DNA from: Stenotrophomonas sp. VV52
GTDB lineage: Bacteria; Pseudomonadota; Gammaproteobacteria; Xanthomonadales; Xanthomonadaceae
Assembly (NCBI RefSeq): GCF_002893095.1
Contig: NZ_PKQQ01000002.1
Coordinates: forward strand, 62,001 to 126,000
Direction: 5' to 3'
DNA length: 64,000 nucleotides
Shown: positions 16,401 through 61,145 of the stretch, piece by piece
Layout: each line of letters starts with the position of its first letter
How positions within the stretch are numbered: position 1 is the first letter of the stretch
Made by a program: the position numbers and the translations under genes
The notes under the pieces: model-generated
What the model saw: only the letters and a program-made list of their open reading frames with translations
Database searches by the model: none
What the model was told of the DNA's origin: nothing

Positions 16401-16530
16401 GTAGTCTCGGTCAGGGGGCGGCGCCAGGACGCCGGCCAGCAAGGAAAGGGGCGGCGATTCTCGCACCTTCGCGGCGGCCGGGCCAATCGCCGGGGCCCGG
16501 CCGGTTCAGCCAGGGCCCATGGGCGCGGGT

Positions 16531-17319
16531 TCAGGGCAGGGCCTGGGTGCCGCGCAGGACCGGGTAGGGGTTGAGCGACTCGCCCTTCCACCACTGCTTT
16601 TCCGGACCCAGGCGGTGGATCTCGAAGTGCAGGTGCGGGGCGTCGGGGCTGGCGTTGCCGGTGTGGCCGACGTAGCCGATCACCTCGCCGCGCTTGATCG
16701 TTTTCTTCTCGGCCAACCCGTCGGCGTAGCGCTGCAGATGGGCGTAGTAGTAGCAGTACTTGCCGCTGGGCTCGAACTGGTAGACGGTCAGGCCGCCGCG
16801 CTCGCTGTCGAACAGTTTTTCCACCGTGCCGTCGGCCACCGCCAGCACCGGGGTGCCCTCGGCAGCGAGGATATCGATGGCGTCATGCACCCGGCCCTCG
16901 CTGCGCGCGTCGGTGAAGGTGTCCTGCAGCTGTGCGGCGGTGATGCCCTGCACGGGAAGCAGCAGCGCCGACGGCGCTACGGCGTTGGCGGGGGCTGCGG
17001 CCACAGCGGCGGTCCCGGGCGCGGGTGTGGTCCCGGCCCCGGTAGAGCCAGGCCCTGCCTGGCTGCCTTTCGGCGCATCAGGGGTCACCGCCAGCCGGGC
17101 AGGGCCCGGCTCTACCGGGTGGGGGTCCGGGGCTACGGCCAGCCGGGCAGAGCCCGGCTCTACCGGCGGGGTGGGTTCCGACGCCACGGGCACCCCCGAG
17201 GTAGCGCCGGGCTCTGCCCGGCCGCCTGCAACCTCGGACGGCGTACCGGTGTCCGAAGCCAGCAACCACCACCCGGCCACCCCGATCACCACGCCCAGCG
17301 CCAGCAGTCGCGTCAGCAT
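16531..17319 (-). CDS. M23-family metallopeptidase with a REP-derived linker
   Basis: A 262-residue protein anchored by one N-terminal membrane helix, with a C-terminal M23 peptidase domain (about residues 125-255) that cuts peptidoglycan cross-links or acts as a regulator of them. Zinc ligands are visible as the H and D of GRVHDAID and as HLHFE; GHTGNASPDAPHLHFE is typical. Residues 32-94, between helix and catalytic domain, are encoded by four GTAG-type REP elements in both orientations, giving repeats such as VEPGSARLA and VEPGPARLA. The start is six bases after the upstream L,D-transpeptidase gene, whose last codons hold the AGGAG ribosome-binding site. Confidence 0.9.
   Translation of the reverse strand: MLTRLLALGVVIGVAGWWLLASDTGTPSEVAGGRAEPGATSGVPVASEPTPPVEPGSARLAVAPDPHPVEPGPARLAVTPDAPKGSQAGPGSTGAGTTPAPGTAAVAAAPANAVAPSALLLPVQGITAAQLQDTFTDARSEGRVHDAIDILAAEGTPVLAVADGTVEKLFDSERGGLTVYQFEPSGKYCYYYAHLQRYADGLAEKKTIKRGEVIGYVGHTGNASPDAPHLHFEIHRLGPEKQWWKGESLNPYPVLRGTQALP
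17042..17225. repeat. Four GTAG-type REP elements inside the M23 peptidase gene
   Basis: Units at 17042-17065 (+), 17093-17115 (-), 17141-17163 (-) and 17201-17225 (+), each with the GCCGGGC-type palindrome next to GTAG/CTAC. All are translated in frame without a stop codon. Confidence 0.85.
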
Positions 17320-17325
17320 TGTCGT

Positions 17326-18291
17326 TTACTCCTGCATGATGACGGGCACCGACGCGTCCACCGCGTCGGCGACCCGAAGGGCATCCCAGTTGGTCATGCG
17401 CACGCAGCCGTGCGATTCAGTCTTGCCCACGTGGCCCGGCTCCGGCGTACCGTGCAGGCCGTAATGCGGTTTGGAAATATCAATCCACACCGGACCCACG
17501 GGATTGTTCGGACCCGGCGGAATCGTCGCCTTTTTATCGCCCTTCTTCGCATCCCAGAACAGCTTCGGGTTGTAGTGGAACGGCGGATCGCGCGAGATGC
17601 CCAGGATCTTCCACTCGCCGATCGGCAGCGGATCGTGCTGGCTGCCCGAAGACACCGGCACCTGTGCGTACACCTTGCCCGCCGCGTCGTACAGGCGCAG
17701 CGTCGAATCGGACTTGTCGATCACCAGCTTGGCCGCCTTCGGCAACGCCGTCGGCGCAATGTTCGGCACCTGGATCTGGCTGCCGGCCTTGCCCAGGTCC
17801 ACGCCCGGGTTGAGGGTCTGCAGCAGCTTGGGATCGGCATGGAACCGCTCGCCCAGCGACTCGGCGACCGAGGCATAGCCCAGCGCTGTCATCTTCGCCT
17901 GGTCGGCAGGCTTCTTCGGCACCGGCAGGAACGGCCCGGCCACGTCTTCCGCAGTCAGCGTGTAGGTCGCGAGCGGCCCCGCAGCGTCGGGCTGCAATGC
18001 CTGCCAGGTGGCATCGTCCAGCTCACCGCTGACCTTCAGCCCTTTCGCGGCCTGGAATCCCGCCACCGCGCGCTTCTGGTTCGAGCCCAGCACGCCATCG
18101 ATCTGCCCGGGCGAGAACTGCGCGCGATCCAGCAGCACCTGCGCGTGCAGGTCCGAACGTGGGCCGGTAGCGAGCGTGGCCTCCTCTGCAATGGGCGCAG
18201 GAAGCGCGGCAGGGGCCTGCGCCATCACCGGCGAAGCGGCAGCGAGGGCCAGGGCAAGCAGGGAAACGGAAGCAGGCAGTCGCAGCAGCAT
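17326..18291 (-). CDS. L,D-transpeptidase (YkuD) with peptidoglycan-binding domain
   Basis: A 321-residue exported enzyme. A signal peptide (ALALAAASPVMAQ) is followed by a peptidoglycan-binding helix bundle (about residues 45-100), a linker, and a YkuD domain (about 190-321) with the active-site motif HG(x)n SHGCVRM; the cysteine is the nucleophile. It makes 3-3 cross-links or attaches proteins to the wall. The ATG at 18291 is the only start that puts the signal peptide first. It forms an operon with the M23 peptidase downstream (six-base gap), so synthesis and cleavage of cross-links may be coordinated. Confidence 0.92.
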   Translation of the reverse strand: MLLRLPASVSLLALALAAASPVMAQAPAALPAPIAEEATLATGPRSDLHAQVLLDRAQFSPGQIDGVLGSNQKRAVAGFQAAKGLKVSGELDDATWQALQPDAAGPLATYTLTAEDVAGPFLPVPKKPADQAKMTALGYASVAESLGERFHADPKLLQTLNPGVDLGKAGSQIQVPNIAPTALPKAAKLVIDKSDSTLRLYDAAGKVYAQVPVSSGSQHDPLPIGEWKILGISRDPPFHYNPKLFWDAKKGDKKATIPPGPNNPVGPVWIDISKPHYGLHGTPEPGHVGKTESHGCVRMTNWDALRVADAVDASVPVIMQE

Positions 18292-18389
18292 CGGGTCATC
18301 CGGAATGGGTTCGTCCTCACCATGCCGGAGCGCGCTGCGCAGAATCCGTGAAATGCCTGACGGCCGGCTGACCGTCAGGCGGTGACGCC

Positions 18390-18734
18390 TCAACGCACGT
18401 CGCGCATTTCCCAATGATGGCCGGCGAGCAGGCGCAGGCGCTGCTTGAACACGTCGCTGTCGATCTTCGTCTTGACGGTCAGGTTGACGCGCAGGTCCTT
18501 CTGCTCACCGGTGACGGTGGCATCGGGGTCGGTGGCGCCCCACTGCAGCTCCACCGCATCCGGGTCGGGCTGCTTCGCACGCCAGCGCTCGAACAGCGCA
18601 GTGGAGCGCAGGGCCTCCTGCAGCTCCTCGGCGAATCCGGCGGCGCCCTGGGAGTGGAACGAAAGGTCGGTGTCGCTGCCGCGCGCCTTGGCGGGGTCCG
18701 GCAGGCTGATGCTGTACTGCACTACTGACGACAT
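18390..18734 (-). CDS. Conserved hypothetical protein
   Basis: A 114-residue soluble protein rich in charged residues (MSSVVQYSISLPDP to HHWEMRDVR), with no signal peptide or membrane segment. AAGGAG precedes the ATG at a good distance, and codon use matches its neighbours, so it is a real gene. It lies 98 bp upstream of the L,D-transpeptidase on the same strand. I do not recognise a family. Confidence 0.6.
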   Translation of the reverse strand: MSSVVQYSISLPDPAKARGSDTDLSFHSQGAAGFAEELQEALRSTALFERWRAKQPDPDAVELQWGATDPDATVTGEQKDLRVNLTVKTKIDSDVFKQRLRLLAGHHWEMRDVR

Positions 18735-33563: not shown

Positions 33564-35858
33564 ATGCTCAACCGACCCCTGACGATCGCCGTGGCGATCG
33601 CGCTGTGCGCTGCCAATGCAAATGCCGCCGACGTAGATGCCGCGCTTGGCGTCGACTCGGCTGCCACCGCCCGCACGCTGGACGCCGTCTCCGTCATCGG
33701 CCAGGGCGAGACCCGTCAGGTGCAGCGCATCACCATCGCTGACAAGCAGGTGTTGCCGCCTGGCACCAGCGCACAGAAGATCCTCGACCGGCTGCCCGGC
33801 GTGTCGGTGCAGTCGAACGACGCCTTCGGCGCCAACGAAGAATCCCAGACCATCAGCCTGCGCGGCTTCGACAAGAGCCGCTTGGGCTACACGCTCGACG
33901 GCCTGCCGCTGGGCGACAACAGCTACGGCAACTACAACGGCCTGAGCATCGCGCGTGCGCTGATCGCCGAGAACCTGGCCGGCGCCGAGCTCTCGCAGGG
34001 CATCGGCTCGCTGGGCGTGGCCTCCACCAGCAACCTGGGCGGCACCATACAGTACTTCTCGCAGGACCCGTCCACCGAGTTCGGTGGGCGTGCCAGCGTC
34101 ACCGTGGGCGATGACAACCAGCGGCGCGGCTACCTGCGCGTGGACACCGGCGACCTCAACGGCTTCTCGGCCTATGTCTCCGGGGTACACCAGGACGCCG
34201 ACATGTGGGCCGAGCCGAACCAGAACCAGACTACCCGCCAGTTCAACGCCAAGGCGGTGTGGCAGGTGGGCGACCATCGCTTTGGCGCCTTCGCGGCCAC
34301 CTCGCGGGTCAGCCAGGCCAACTACGCTTACCTCTCCAAGAGCATGCTCGCCCGTGGCCTGGGCTGGGACTGGAACATCTACGCACCGGACTGGGACCGG
34401 GCCCTGGCGGCCGCCTACTGCGCACCGGCGACGTACAACGCGCAGCGCTGTGAGTTCAGCGGCGGCGTCAACAGCATCGACGATGCGTACTACCAGAGCC
34501 GTGCGCTGCGCGACGACAACCTGTACTCGCTCGACGCCGACTTCGCACTGGGCGACACCGCCCGCCTGAAGCTGCTCGGTTACCACCATGAGAACCGCGG
34601 CCAGGGCCACTGGTGGGCACCCGGCCAGCCGTCCAACCCGGGCACGCCGCAGGCGCTGCCCATCTCCATCCGCAGCACCAACTACACCATCAACCGGCAG
34701 GGCATCACCGCCGCGCTGAGCTGGCAGTGGGGCCTGCACGAGCTGGAAGCGGGGCTGTGGTACGAGCGCAACGACCACAACGTGGAGCGCAACTTCTACT
34801 ACATCACCGGCCCGTTCCTGGACGACGGCTATCTGAACTACCCGAACCGCCGCCTGTTCGACCAGGACTACGACATCCGCACGCGCCAGTTCTACGTGCA
34901 GGACCGCATGCGCTTCATGGATGACCGCCTGACCGTGGATGTGGGTATCAAGAGCCCGAACACCCGCATGACGGCAGTTTCAAAGCCGGGCACCGAGGCC
35001 AGCTACGCCTCGGGCACGCTCACTGCGAAGGAATCGGTGCTGCCGCAGGCAGGTATCGGCTTCAAGCTCAGTCCGAGGAATGAGCTGTTCGCGTCCTACT
35101 CTGAGAACATCGCTGCCTTCATCGGTGGCGGCAGCGGCGGCCCGCTGCAGGTCTCGCCGGAGTCGTTCGCGGCCAGCGTGGATGATCTGGAGCCGGAGAA
35201 GTCGCGGACGCTGGAAGCAGGCTTCCGCACCTTTGGCGAGAAGTACCAGGCCTCAATCGCGGCCTACCACGTGATGTTCGACAACCGCCTGCTATCGCTC
35301 AATCCGTGTACCAGCATTGAGATGGGCACCCGCCCGGAGTGCATCACGCGCTTCATCAACGTCGGTTCGGTGAAGAGCCAAGGTGCGGAGCTGACCTTCA
35401 TCCTCAAGCCGGTGGAAGGGCTGCAGTGGTACAACGCGGTGTCGTGGAACAAGACCACCTATGAAGATGACTACATCTCCGGCGGTGTAGTGGTGCCGGT
35501 GGCCGGGAAGATCACCGTGGATACGCCGCAGCAGATGGTGTCCAGTGAGATCAGCTGGAACCGGGATGGCTTCTTTGCCAGCCTGCGCGGCAAGTACACC
35601 GGCAAGCGGTACTACACGTATACCAACGACCAGTCGGTACCGGGCGTGACCACGTTTGATGCGGGTATGGGGTACTCGTTCGGGCCGGGCATGGGGCTGC
35701 GGGACGTCAAGGTGGCGCTGAATGCGACCAACCTGACCAACAAGCGGTATGCCGGGCAGCTGAGCTCGTTTGCGCCGACTGACCCGAATGGAACTCGGTA
35801 TGCGATTCATGCAAGCGCGCCGCGCCAACTGTTCCTGACCTTCGGCGCGGAATTCTGA
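33564..35858 (+). CDS. TonB-dependent outer-membrane receptor
   Basis: A 764-residue receptor that imports a ligand with energy from TonB. A signal peptide ending ANANAAD is followed by a plug domain (about residues 40-160; DRLPGVSVQSND, ISLRGFD, LDGLPLGDNSYG, SNLGGTIQYFSQDP) and a 22-strand barrel finishing in RQLFLTFGAEF, with the terminal phenylalanine. The extended ligand loops have no recognisable motif. The ATG at 33564 begins the signal peptide. No neighbouring transporter gene shows the ligand; a siderophore or a carbohydrate is possible. A REP pair follows the stop. Confidence 0.9.
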   Translation: MLNRPLTIAVAIALCAANANAADVDAALGVDSAATARTLDAVSVIGQGETRQVQRITIADKQVLPPGTSAQKILDRLPGVSVQSNDAFGANEESQTISLRGFDKSRLGYTLDGLPLGDNSYGNYNGLSIARALIAENLAGAELSQGIGSLGVASTSNLGGTIQYFSQDPSTEFGGRASVTVGDDNQRRGYLRVDTGDLNGFSAYVSGVHQDADMWAEPNQNQTTRQFNAKAVWQVGDHRFGAFAATSRVSQANYAYLSKSMLARGLGWDWNIYAPDWDRALAAAYCAPATYNAQRCEFSGGVNSIDDAYYQSRALRDDNLYSLDADFALGDTARLKLLGYHHENRGQGHWWAPGQPSNPGTPQALPISIRSTNYTINRQGITAALSWQWGLHELEAGLWYERNDHNVERNFYYITGPFLDDGYLNYPNRRLFDQDYDIRTRQFYVQDRMRFMDDRLTVDVGIKSPNTRMTAVSKPGTEASYASGTLTAKESVLPQAGIGFKLSPRNELFASYSENIAAFIGGGSGGPLQVSPESFAASVDDLEPEKSRTLEAGFRTFGEKYQASIAAYHVMFDNRLLSLNPCTSIEMGTRPECITRFINVGSVKSQGAELTFILKPVEGLQWYNAVSWNKTTYEDDYISGGVVVPVAGKITVDTPQQMVSSEISWNRDGFFASLRGKYTGKRYYTYTNDQSVPGVTTFDAGMGYSFGPGMGLRDVKVALNATNLTNKRYAGQLSSFAPTDPNGTRYAIHASAPRQLFLTFGAEF

Positions 35859-35859
35859 C

Positions 35860-35941
35860 GTAGTGCCGGCCGCCGGCCGGCTCCACGTGGTCTACGTCTC
35901 GTTCGACATACCGCCTGGAGCCGGCCAGCGGCCGGCACTAC
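35860..35941. repeat. Inverted pair of GTAG-type REPs (GCCGGCCGCCGGCCGGC subfamily)
   Basis: Units 35860-35885 (+) and 35917-35941 (-), starting one base after the TGA of the TonB receptor. Together they can form a long hairpin and may act as the terminator between the convergent genes. Confidence 0.85.
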
Positions 35942-42599: not shown

Positions 42600-42697
42600 G
42601 TAGCGCCGGGCTCTGCCCGGCCGCTCTTCGTTGCGCGCCGACCATCAACGAATTCGCAGGTAATTCACCCCGGTAGATCCACGCCCTGCGTGGATGC
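42600..42697 (+). repeat. Two direct GTAG-type REP elements of different subfamilies
   Basis: 42600-42623 (GCCGGGCTCTGCCCGGC type) and 42673-42697 (ATCCACGCCCTGCGTGGAT type), both on the plus strand between the binding-protein gene and the LuxR regulator. Confidence 0.8.
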
Positions 42698-60486: not shown

Positions 60487-60553
60487 GTAGCGACACGCCA
60501 TGCGTGTCCCATGGACGGTCGGCACCGCGCGGACACGCATGGCGTGTCCCTAC
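60487..60553. repeat. Inverted REP pair downstream of the RAYT gene
   Basis: Units 60487-60510 (+) and 60531-60553 (-), both of the GACACGCCATGCGTGTC subfamily. The right unit's GTAG (minus strand) supplies the stop codon of the RAYT gene. Confidence 0.9.
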
Positions 60554-60981
60554 AGGCCTCTGCACCAGGCGTAGGGGTATTCGCCTGCCTGTTCTGCCAG
60601 CCCCGCGCGCAGGGGATTGGCCACGATGTAACGTGCGGCCTCGATCAACGACTCTTCACGCCGCAGCGCATGGTCGTGATACCCCTTTTGCCACACCCGA
60701 TCGCCACCGATCAGCCGACTGCTGCGCGATTTGAAGATGTTCATGCAGGTGGCGAGGGTTCCCGATTTCAGCTCCATCAACCAGTGGACGTGGTCGGGCA
60801 TCACCACCCAGGCGTGTGTGCGGCTGCGGCCGCTGCGTTCGATGTGGCGCAGGGCATCGATCACGGCATGGGCGTTGCCGGGAACCTCGAACAGAGGTTG
60901 CCGACCGCGGGTGACGGTGGTGAGGATGTAGATGGCCCCCACGGCCGAGAACCGCCCGCGTTGGAGGCGTGAACTGGACAT
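60550..60981 (-). CDS. rayT: REP-associated tyrosine transposase (RAYT)
   Basis: A 143-residue single-strand nuclease of the Y1/HUH class. HVH of VVMPDHVHWLME (His64, His66) binds the metal and Tyr101 in WQKGYHDHALRREE is the catalytic tyrosine; YIVANPLRAGL follows as usual. RAYTs cut and join REP DNA and are thought to spread REP elements. Five REP units of one subfamily flank the gene and match others at 15.5, 24.1 and 63.5 kb. The ATG at 60981 starts the domain; the frame further upstream is REP sequence. Confidence 0.93.
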   Translation of the reverse strand: MSSSRLQRGRFSAVGAIYILTTVTRGRQPLFEVPGNAHAVIDALRHIERSGRSRTHAWVVMPDHVHWLMELKSGTLATCMNIFKSRSSRLIGGDRVWQKGYHDHALRREESLIEAARYIVANPLRAGLAEQAGEYPYAWCRGL

Positions 60982-61038
60982 GCGGAAAGGTTGCCGCGGC
61001 GGCGGCAGCGAACATATCGGCAAGGGACGCAATTCCGC

Positions 61039-61145
61039 GTAGGGACACGCCACGCGTGTCTGCGCGGGGTGGCTGGCGGTGCGTGGGACACGCATGGCGT
61101 GTCGCTACGGGCGGTGCATGCGGGTAGTGACACGCCATGCGTGTC
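61039..61145. repeat. Three REP units upstream of the RAYT gene
   Basis: 61039-61060 (+), 61085-61108 (-) and 61124-61145 (+), GACACGCCATGCGTGTC subfamily, the first with one substitution in the palindrome (GCCACGCG). Confidence 0.9.

Follow-up and report, generated by a model that had tools for sequence, protein, structure and literature searches.

The window analysed here, 64,000 nt of DNA from Stenotrophomonas sp. VV52, carries two neighbouring cell-wall genes on its minus strand. The features relevant to this report are the following.

16531..17319, minus strand: gene for a putatively membrane-anchored M23 metallopeptidase of 262 aa (open reading frame; Pfam PF01551, E 2.2e-21)
17260..17316, minus strand: N-terminal helix, aa 2-20 (helix in the predicted model)
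16966..17259, minus strand: predicted disordered linker, aa 21-118 (coil, block pLDDT about 45-60)
16606..16890, minus strand: M23 catalytic domain, aa 144-238 (Pfam; H145, D149, H229, H231)
17326..18414, minus strand: L,D-transpeptidase gene (YkuD and PG_binding_1; Pfam on 17326-18300), the upstream partner

The Peptidase_M23 assignment (76.3 bits against a Pfam cut-off of 28.7) identifies the 262-aa protein as a putative peptidase; the protein reaches no NCBIfam cut-off. H145/D149 and H229/H231, which we take to be the M23 metal ligands HxxxD and HxH, are unchanged in 30 of 30 aligned orthologues. Judging from its residues, the helix at aa 2-20 probably serves as a membrane anchor, and it is followed in the predicted model by low-confidence coil from about residue 21 to residue 120. 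The true start of the transpeptidase is probably further in than that of the listed open reading frame. A transpeptidase-related gene lies upstream on the same strand in 64/64 orthologous M23 loci, with 3-6 nt between its stop codon and the ATG of the peptidase. A 610-aa open frame runs antisense over both cell-wall genes (window 16519-18351, plus strand) and is probably a by-product of high GC content.

The codons of the linker contain four copies of a repetitive extragenic palindrome (REP) of the GTAG type. All four match the pattern GTAGNGCCNGGCNNTGCCNGGC with zero mismatches, carry an exact GTAG at the foot of the stem and are found by a stem scanner as near-perfect palindromes with a short loop. 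They belong to what we call class A (GCCNGGC..GCCNGGC). Numbered in protein order, they are:

17201..17222, plus strand: REP 1, antisense, exact match; codes for GRAEPGAT, aa 33-40
17142..17163, minus strand: REP 2, sense, exact match; codes for VEPGSARL, aa 53-60
17094..17115, minus strand: REP 3, sense, exact match; codes for VEPGPARL, aa 69-76
17042..17063, plus strand: REP 4, antisense, exact match; codes for SQAGPGST, aa 86-93

These exact matches confirm what a preliminary description of the locus had proposed, namely four GTAG-type REPs, two per orientation, all inside the peptidase gene and open in its frame. The same description overstated their share when it held that the linker is made of REPs: the cores account for 88 of the 294 nt that encode aa 21-118 (about 30%), and the remainder is spacer. 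REPs 1, 2 and 4 are preserved in another genome of the same species (L131) and in a sister species (L132), where REP 2 has one base change. REP 3 is likely the tandem partner of REP 2, going by a 46-nt direct repeat (D1, 85%, 48-nt spacing). An assembly artefact is an unlikely source of the four REPs, because the L131 genome, which is a single contig, and the sister species share them.

The linker copies are members of a large genomic population. The REP pattern has 191 matches at one mismatch or fewer in the 4.43-Mb genome and none when it is read backwards; a second class with GGCC stems (class B) has 190 copies and a control count of 0. A BLAST search of the REP stretch against its own genome gave 75 matches, self included, among them matches at other sites with 97-100% identity across about 28 nt. 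The concern, raised with the first description, that GC-rich proline/glycine codons merely resemble REPs by chance is practically untenable: in 26/64 orthologues a loose stem-loop scan does match a catalytic-part site that is no REP (at the identical place in the four inspected), but the consensus occurs here exactly four times with near-identical copies across the genome, codon shuffles of the linker produced a match in 0/3000 cases, synonymous recodings of the same protein did so in 57/3000 and never gave more than 2, and the 55 REP-free orthologous linkers hold no copy at two mismatches or fewer and one at three. Since the loose scan matched that catalytic-part site, consensus REPs were chosen for these controls.

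Most copies lie between genes, in agreement with the earlier statement that REPs are normally extragenic. We examined 100 exact class A copies (7 in the window and a genome sample of 93, restricted to those that lie 300 nt or more inside their loci and with same-context copies merged), and found 15 in open reading frames predicted by a codon model trained on the window. By our judgement, eight of the 100 have coding sequence on both sides: four in the M23 gene, two in FtsY and a single copy each in ScpB and L230. A further two lie at the 3' ends of open frames (L145 and L187), both in antisense frame 2, and that of L145 overlaps a Pfam match in its final residues. Four lie near 5' ends and are probably untranslated, and the copy in L186 was placed in neither the internal nor the end group. 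For class B, 2/30 copies fall in open frames, both in 5' parts. The frames with REPs in their 5' parts (L144, L167, L200, L205, L238 and L255) were left out as probable start overcalls, a judgement from coding margins and domain positions. Elsewhere in the window, two class B copies, one of which has a mismatch, lie at 35860-35941, just past a gene that ends at 35858, and three class A copies at 42600, 43458 and 43725 are outside predicted genes.

The window also encodes a candidate mobiliser:

60550..61095, minus strand: REP-associated tyrosine transposase (RAYT; NCBIfam NF047646, 141 bits against a cut-off of 80; Y1_Tnp match)

It is one of three Y1_Tnp genes in the genome and passes NF047646. 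The flanks examined contain no class A or class B REP, and no class A copy lies beside any of the three RAYTs in loci of 2.6-3.3 kb. Class B copies occur near one of them only (L175, several copies, 1263-1956), an arrangement typical of a REPtron. The missing class A flank bears on the mobiliser of class A and not on the identity of the repeats.

M23 orthologues were collected at E<=1e-60 from 64 of 91 genomes of the genus, our own included, and as the first description had suggested, the REP units in each linker were counted after alignment. Their number ranges from zero to five. Intact linker REPs are present in eight orthologues: four each in our genome, L131 and L132, five in L133, three in L010, two in L027 and one each in L023 and L139. 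L134 has two decayed class A REPs, one and two mismatches off, and scores 0 in the loose scan because its GTAG is lost. The remaining 55 have none; L130 (one place, three mismatches) and L140 (one, four mismatches) were counted among these. No REP-free orthologue has the same linker (0/55): their tethers consist of other sequence with 36-65% Pro + Ala (median 50%). The stretch before the catalytic part measures 118 aa in our protein and in L131, and 75-118 aa among the eight carriers; in the 56 orthologues that lack intact REPs it has 63-95 aa, which upholds the proposal that REPs have lengthened the tether. The accompanying proposal that their number varies between strains stands for the comparison between species; within the species, our genome and the one other conspecific genome have all four in the M23 linker, as does the sister species, and strain variation appears in another gene, FtsY (these strain-level counts cover two genomes). 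Carriers were also found among named contigs with relatives: of the best 80 of 90, four have linker REPs (Stenotrophomonas sp. ISL-67, S. rhizophila DE0483, Stenotrophomonas sp. PS02289 and sp. 278), in linkers identical to those of L133, L010, L023 and L027, and none of the records in this set named as another genus has them. Genomic REP abundance was rejected as the reason for carriage, with medians of 148 in the eight carriers and 105 in the 56 others (P 0.30).

A tree of the catalytic part, with a bootstrap that is not fully settled, places six sequences in one starred carrier clade (ours, L131, L132, L010, L133 and the decayed L134) and L023, L027 and L139 in a second. Presence and absence on this tree require three changes, at least two of them by starred branches. 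The second clade has class B REPs only, and ours has class A REPs plus one class B copy in L133. Two classes in two clades thus imply that REPs entered the M23 linker at least twice. The arrays then apparently grew by tandem duplication, since REPs of the same orientation are evenly spaced: by 48 nt in our gene (two copies), 39 nt in L133 (three) and 51 nt in L010 (three). Gaps in the alignment of our sequence with L131 and L132 measure 12, 18 and 27 nt, all multiples of three, and all fall in spacers and none in a REP, so that the arrays appear to have changed by whole-codon insertions and deletions. No empty insertion site was mapped for the REPs of our clade.

The M23 linker is not the only protein segment with internal REPs. 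In our genome they also occur in the N-terminal region of FtsY, in the tail of ScpB and in the linker of a SPOR-domain protein, in each case outside Pfam domains:

L007:924-1790, minus strand: SPOR-domain membrane protein with an in-frame class A REP in a Pro/Ala linker (outside the 100-copy sample)
L159:1163-2146, minus strand: ScpB, whose acidic C-terminal tail contains an in-frame REP (VEPGSARL)

No Pfam or NCBIfam profile matches L230, a partial open frame (717 aa) with a REP inside it. Among the best 30 matches of the 89 genomes with a match to each protein, REPs are present in 4/30 FtsY and 6/30 SPOR orthologues. The disordered N-terminal region of FtsY has two in-frame REPs here (L296) and one in the conspecific genome G101 (L305); the second lies in a segment absent from G101, and the open frames of 465 and 438 aa differ by 27 codons. 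The SPOR protein shares the anchor-linker-domain plan of the M23 protein, and its orthologues (L266-L271) have class A REPs in our genome, G101 and G102 and class B REPs in G002, G116 and G124.

The internal REPs appear to be restricted in frame. A sense REP leaves two frames open and closes the third by its own TAG, and an antisense REP leaves all three open; the palindrome is therefore stop-free in five of six frames. All intact linker REPs of the eight M23 carriers use sense frame 0 (VEPGSARL type) or antisense frame 2 (SRAEPGST, SQAGPGST and GRPTAGAT types). Counted once per gene, orientation and REP class, there are nine internal events. Six of six sense events are in frame 0 (M23, ScpB, FtsY, L230, SPOR class A and SPOR class B), and three of three antisense events are in frame 2 (M23 class A, M23 class B and FtsY). 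That nine events should all be confined to these two of the five open frames has a probability of 1/64 x 1/27, or P about 6e-4 (6.4e-5 with the two gene-end cases added), values from few events in a test made after the data were seen. Because the REP is a palindrome, sense frame 0 and antisense frame 2 mirror each other, and both give EPGS-like, proline/glycine-rich peptides without net charge. The unused open class A frames would encode RAGLCPA (Cys, +1), QPGRARLY (Tyr, +2) and AGQSPAL. Peptide chemistry accounts for the rule only in part, since the disorder score of AGQSPAL is not much different from that of VEPGSARL.

Of 82 REPs sampled in a second species (G025), 18 lie in predicted open frames, either at their ends, in a frame composed of a REP array or without a coding signal upstream, and by judgement none of the 82 is internal. 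Two REPs at gene 3' ends are in other frames. A further copy, in L337, lies in antisense frame 0 at 117 aa into an open frame without coding signal upstream, and would break the rule if translated. G025 also contains a tandem array of seven REPs (L362:6135-6392); it forms a repetitive open frame of 85 aa (repeat PGMARRYRVH), which is probably spurious.

How may extragenic palindromes have become part of a peptidase? We consider it probable that these palindromes are mobile, that disordered protein tolerates them and that the reading frame acts as a filter. GTAG REPs, which a REP-associated tyrosine transposase presumably moved, would have entered the codons of a pre-existing disordered Pro/Ala-rich M23 tether. 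Insertions may have survived because this tether tolerates added residues and the palindrome rarely introduces a stop. The survivors would be those in the two mirror-equivalent frames that give Pro/Gly-rich peptides without net charge, VEPGSARL in sense and SRAEPGST in antisense, and duplication of a REP together with its spacer, along with whole-codon changes, would then have made the tether longer. The position, identity and frame of the REPs, their distribution among orthologues, the two classes in two clades and the frame-keeping change are read directly from the aligned genes. Tolerance rather than benefit is the interpretation that we suggest for them, and an effect on the reach of the enzyme is conceivable.

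A broader proposal, which we put forward only tentatively, is that in this Stenotrophomonas clade REPs are mobile, translatable linker modules for flexible parts of envelope, division and chromosome proteins (the M23 peptidase, the SPOR protein, FtsY and ScpB). Either orientation gives nearly the same disordered EPGS-type peptide because the REP is a palindrome, so that such modules could lengthen tethers recurrently and in strain-variable number, with the DNA palindrome conserved as well. Domestication, as the first description termed it, is unlikely in our estimate; the REP residues would then themselves be under selection because the peptidase, on a longer tether, gets to where it belongs in the cell wall, and REP number would tune the length. 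The tether is the longest of 64 (the next measures 107 aa), its four REPs are preserved in three related genomes, REPs occur in the M23 linker of two clades, and a protein of the same plan, the SPOR protein, carries them too; yet 55/64 orthologues do without recognisable REPs on tethers down to 63 aa, REP order, orientation and class vary among related species, and the REPs of L134 are decaying.

It appears more improbable still that REPs act mainly as mRNA or DNA hairpins of the transpeptidase-peptidase pair, for example by stabilising the upstream message or slowing ribosomes, and that the protein merely tolerates them. The constant upstream position of the transpeptidase would suit such a role. 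The predicted mRNA fold of the REP stretch is also unusually stable, with -158.4 kcal/mol compared to -115.5 kcal/mol for shuffles (z -8.85), and against codon shuffles z ranges from -3.8 to -7.1 in five carriers of our clade (ours, L131, L132, L133 and L010). However, L023, L027 and L139, which carry antisense REPs only, have z of -0.5, -2.4 and 0.2, inside the range of eight REP-free linkers (0.9 to -2.9). Large paired hairpins require REPs in opposite orientation, and the three in L010 share one. Translation would moreover open hairpins.

Silent sites are the second line of evidence for a role of the nucleic acid. At four-fold sites, co-positioned REPs show 0/35 changes compared to 81/469 elsewhere (three comparisons pooled), with P 0.0015, or about 0.04 on the assumption of a single visible lineage; the latter value is fairer because REPs were recognised by pattern match in one partner. 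The M23 genes of our genome and G102 contribute 0/21 against 23/132 to this pool by codon alignment, and a DNA alignment of their silent sites, which was not pooled, gives 0/25 against 18/123. Three SPOR comparisons were left out of the pool: G002/G124, with REPs aligned out of register (2/2 changed), ours with G002, with REPs at different places (0/2 changed), and ours with G101 (0/7 changed). Between our M23 gene and L131, 1/27 silent sites in or next to REPs changed compared to 3/148 elsewhere, which argues against a hairpin role. The apparent conservation of silent sites in REPs is not predicted by pure tolerance and so counts against the reading that we prefer. The pattern is at most suggestive, and could come from gene conversion, from recency or from selection that acts on the palindrome. 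Two further candidates were rejected: a known RNA family, since the six Rfam matches (microRNAs and isrG) score far below their gathering thresholds, and a promoter or terminator role, since there is no promoter-like site and the two terminator-like sites lie at 17515-17530, outside the REPs.

If REP number in such linkers does not matter, the tether would be a gauge of how much translated mobile DNA a disordered segment accepts. If the number does matter, a selfish repeat would have a part in how cell-wall enzymes and division proteins evolve. In either case one linker, followed through 64 orthologues with zero to five units, allows REPs that code for protein to be compared, and the orientation-and-frame rule can be tested across thousands of genomes.

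The enzyme has the catalytic fold and metal-site residues in common with the LytM/M23 endopeptidases DipM, LytM and MepM; unlike in these proteins, the M23 domain is preceded here by a helix and a long, predicted disordered tether. The repeats have relatives in the S. maltophilia REPtron, as far as it is described in the parts of the report covered: a 23-nt GTAG REP with an 8-bp perfect stem and the loop GCT, cleaved at CT by its transposase TnpA-REP (PMC8266576). By our reading this description fits class B here, GTAGTGCCGGCCGCTGGCCGGC, unlike the class A REPs of the M23 gene. The Rickettsia palindromic elements of Ogata et al., in the account consulted in part, are selfish elements of about 150 bp that lie in frame in many unrelated genes and encode a conserved peptide (PMC10969869). 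Both are palindromes inserted in frame in unrelated genes; the unit here measures 22-24 nt and forms arrays of several copies, whereas a Rickettsia element brings a coding frame of its own at a length of about 150 bp, and for this reason of size an identity with Rickettsia elements was rejected. The border is not sharp, since RPE-4 and RPE-6 have been counted among CGTC repeats, according to the sections seen of a 2013 survey (PMC3733652).

The same sections of that survey (PMC3733652) report GTAG/CGTC REPs translated inside open reading frames singly, as dimers and in clusters, with S. maltophilia tRNA pseudouridine synthase genes among the examples and with REP clusters coding for 43-82 aa in Thauera and R. 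conorii, and they name flexible linkers or loops as places that tolerate REPs. They also describe different REPs at about the same recB site in two Xanthomonas species, so that repeated entry at one gene site has a precedent. Among the REP-bearing genes named in the sections covered there is no M23 peptidase; nor do these sections give a frame rule or count the REPs of a single linker orthologue by orthologue. A literature search through titles and the beginnings of abstracts, with supplements and most subscription papers outside its scope, likewise found no M23 peptidase with REPs and no REP frame rule. Intragenic GTAG REPs and their tolerance in linkers are thus already known; the new element is an M23 case with an unusually clear comparative record.
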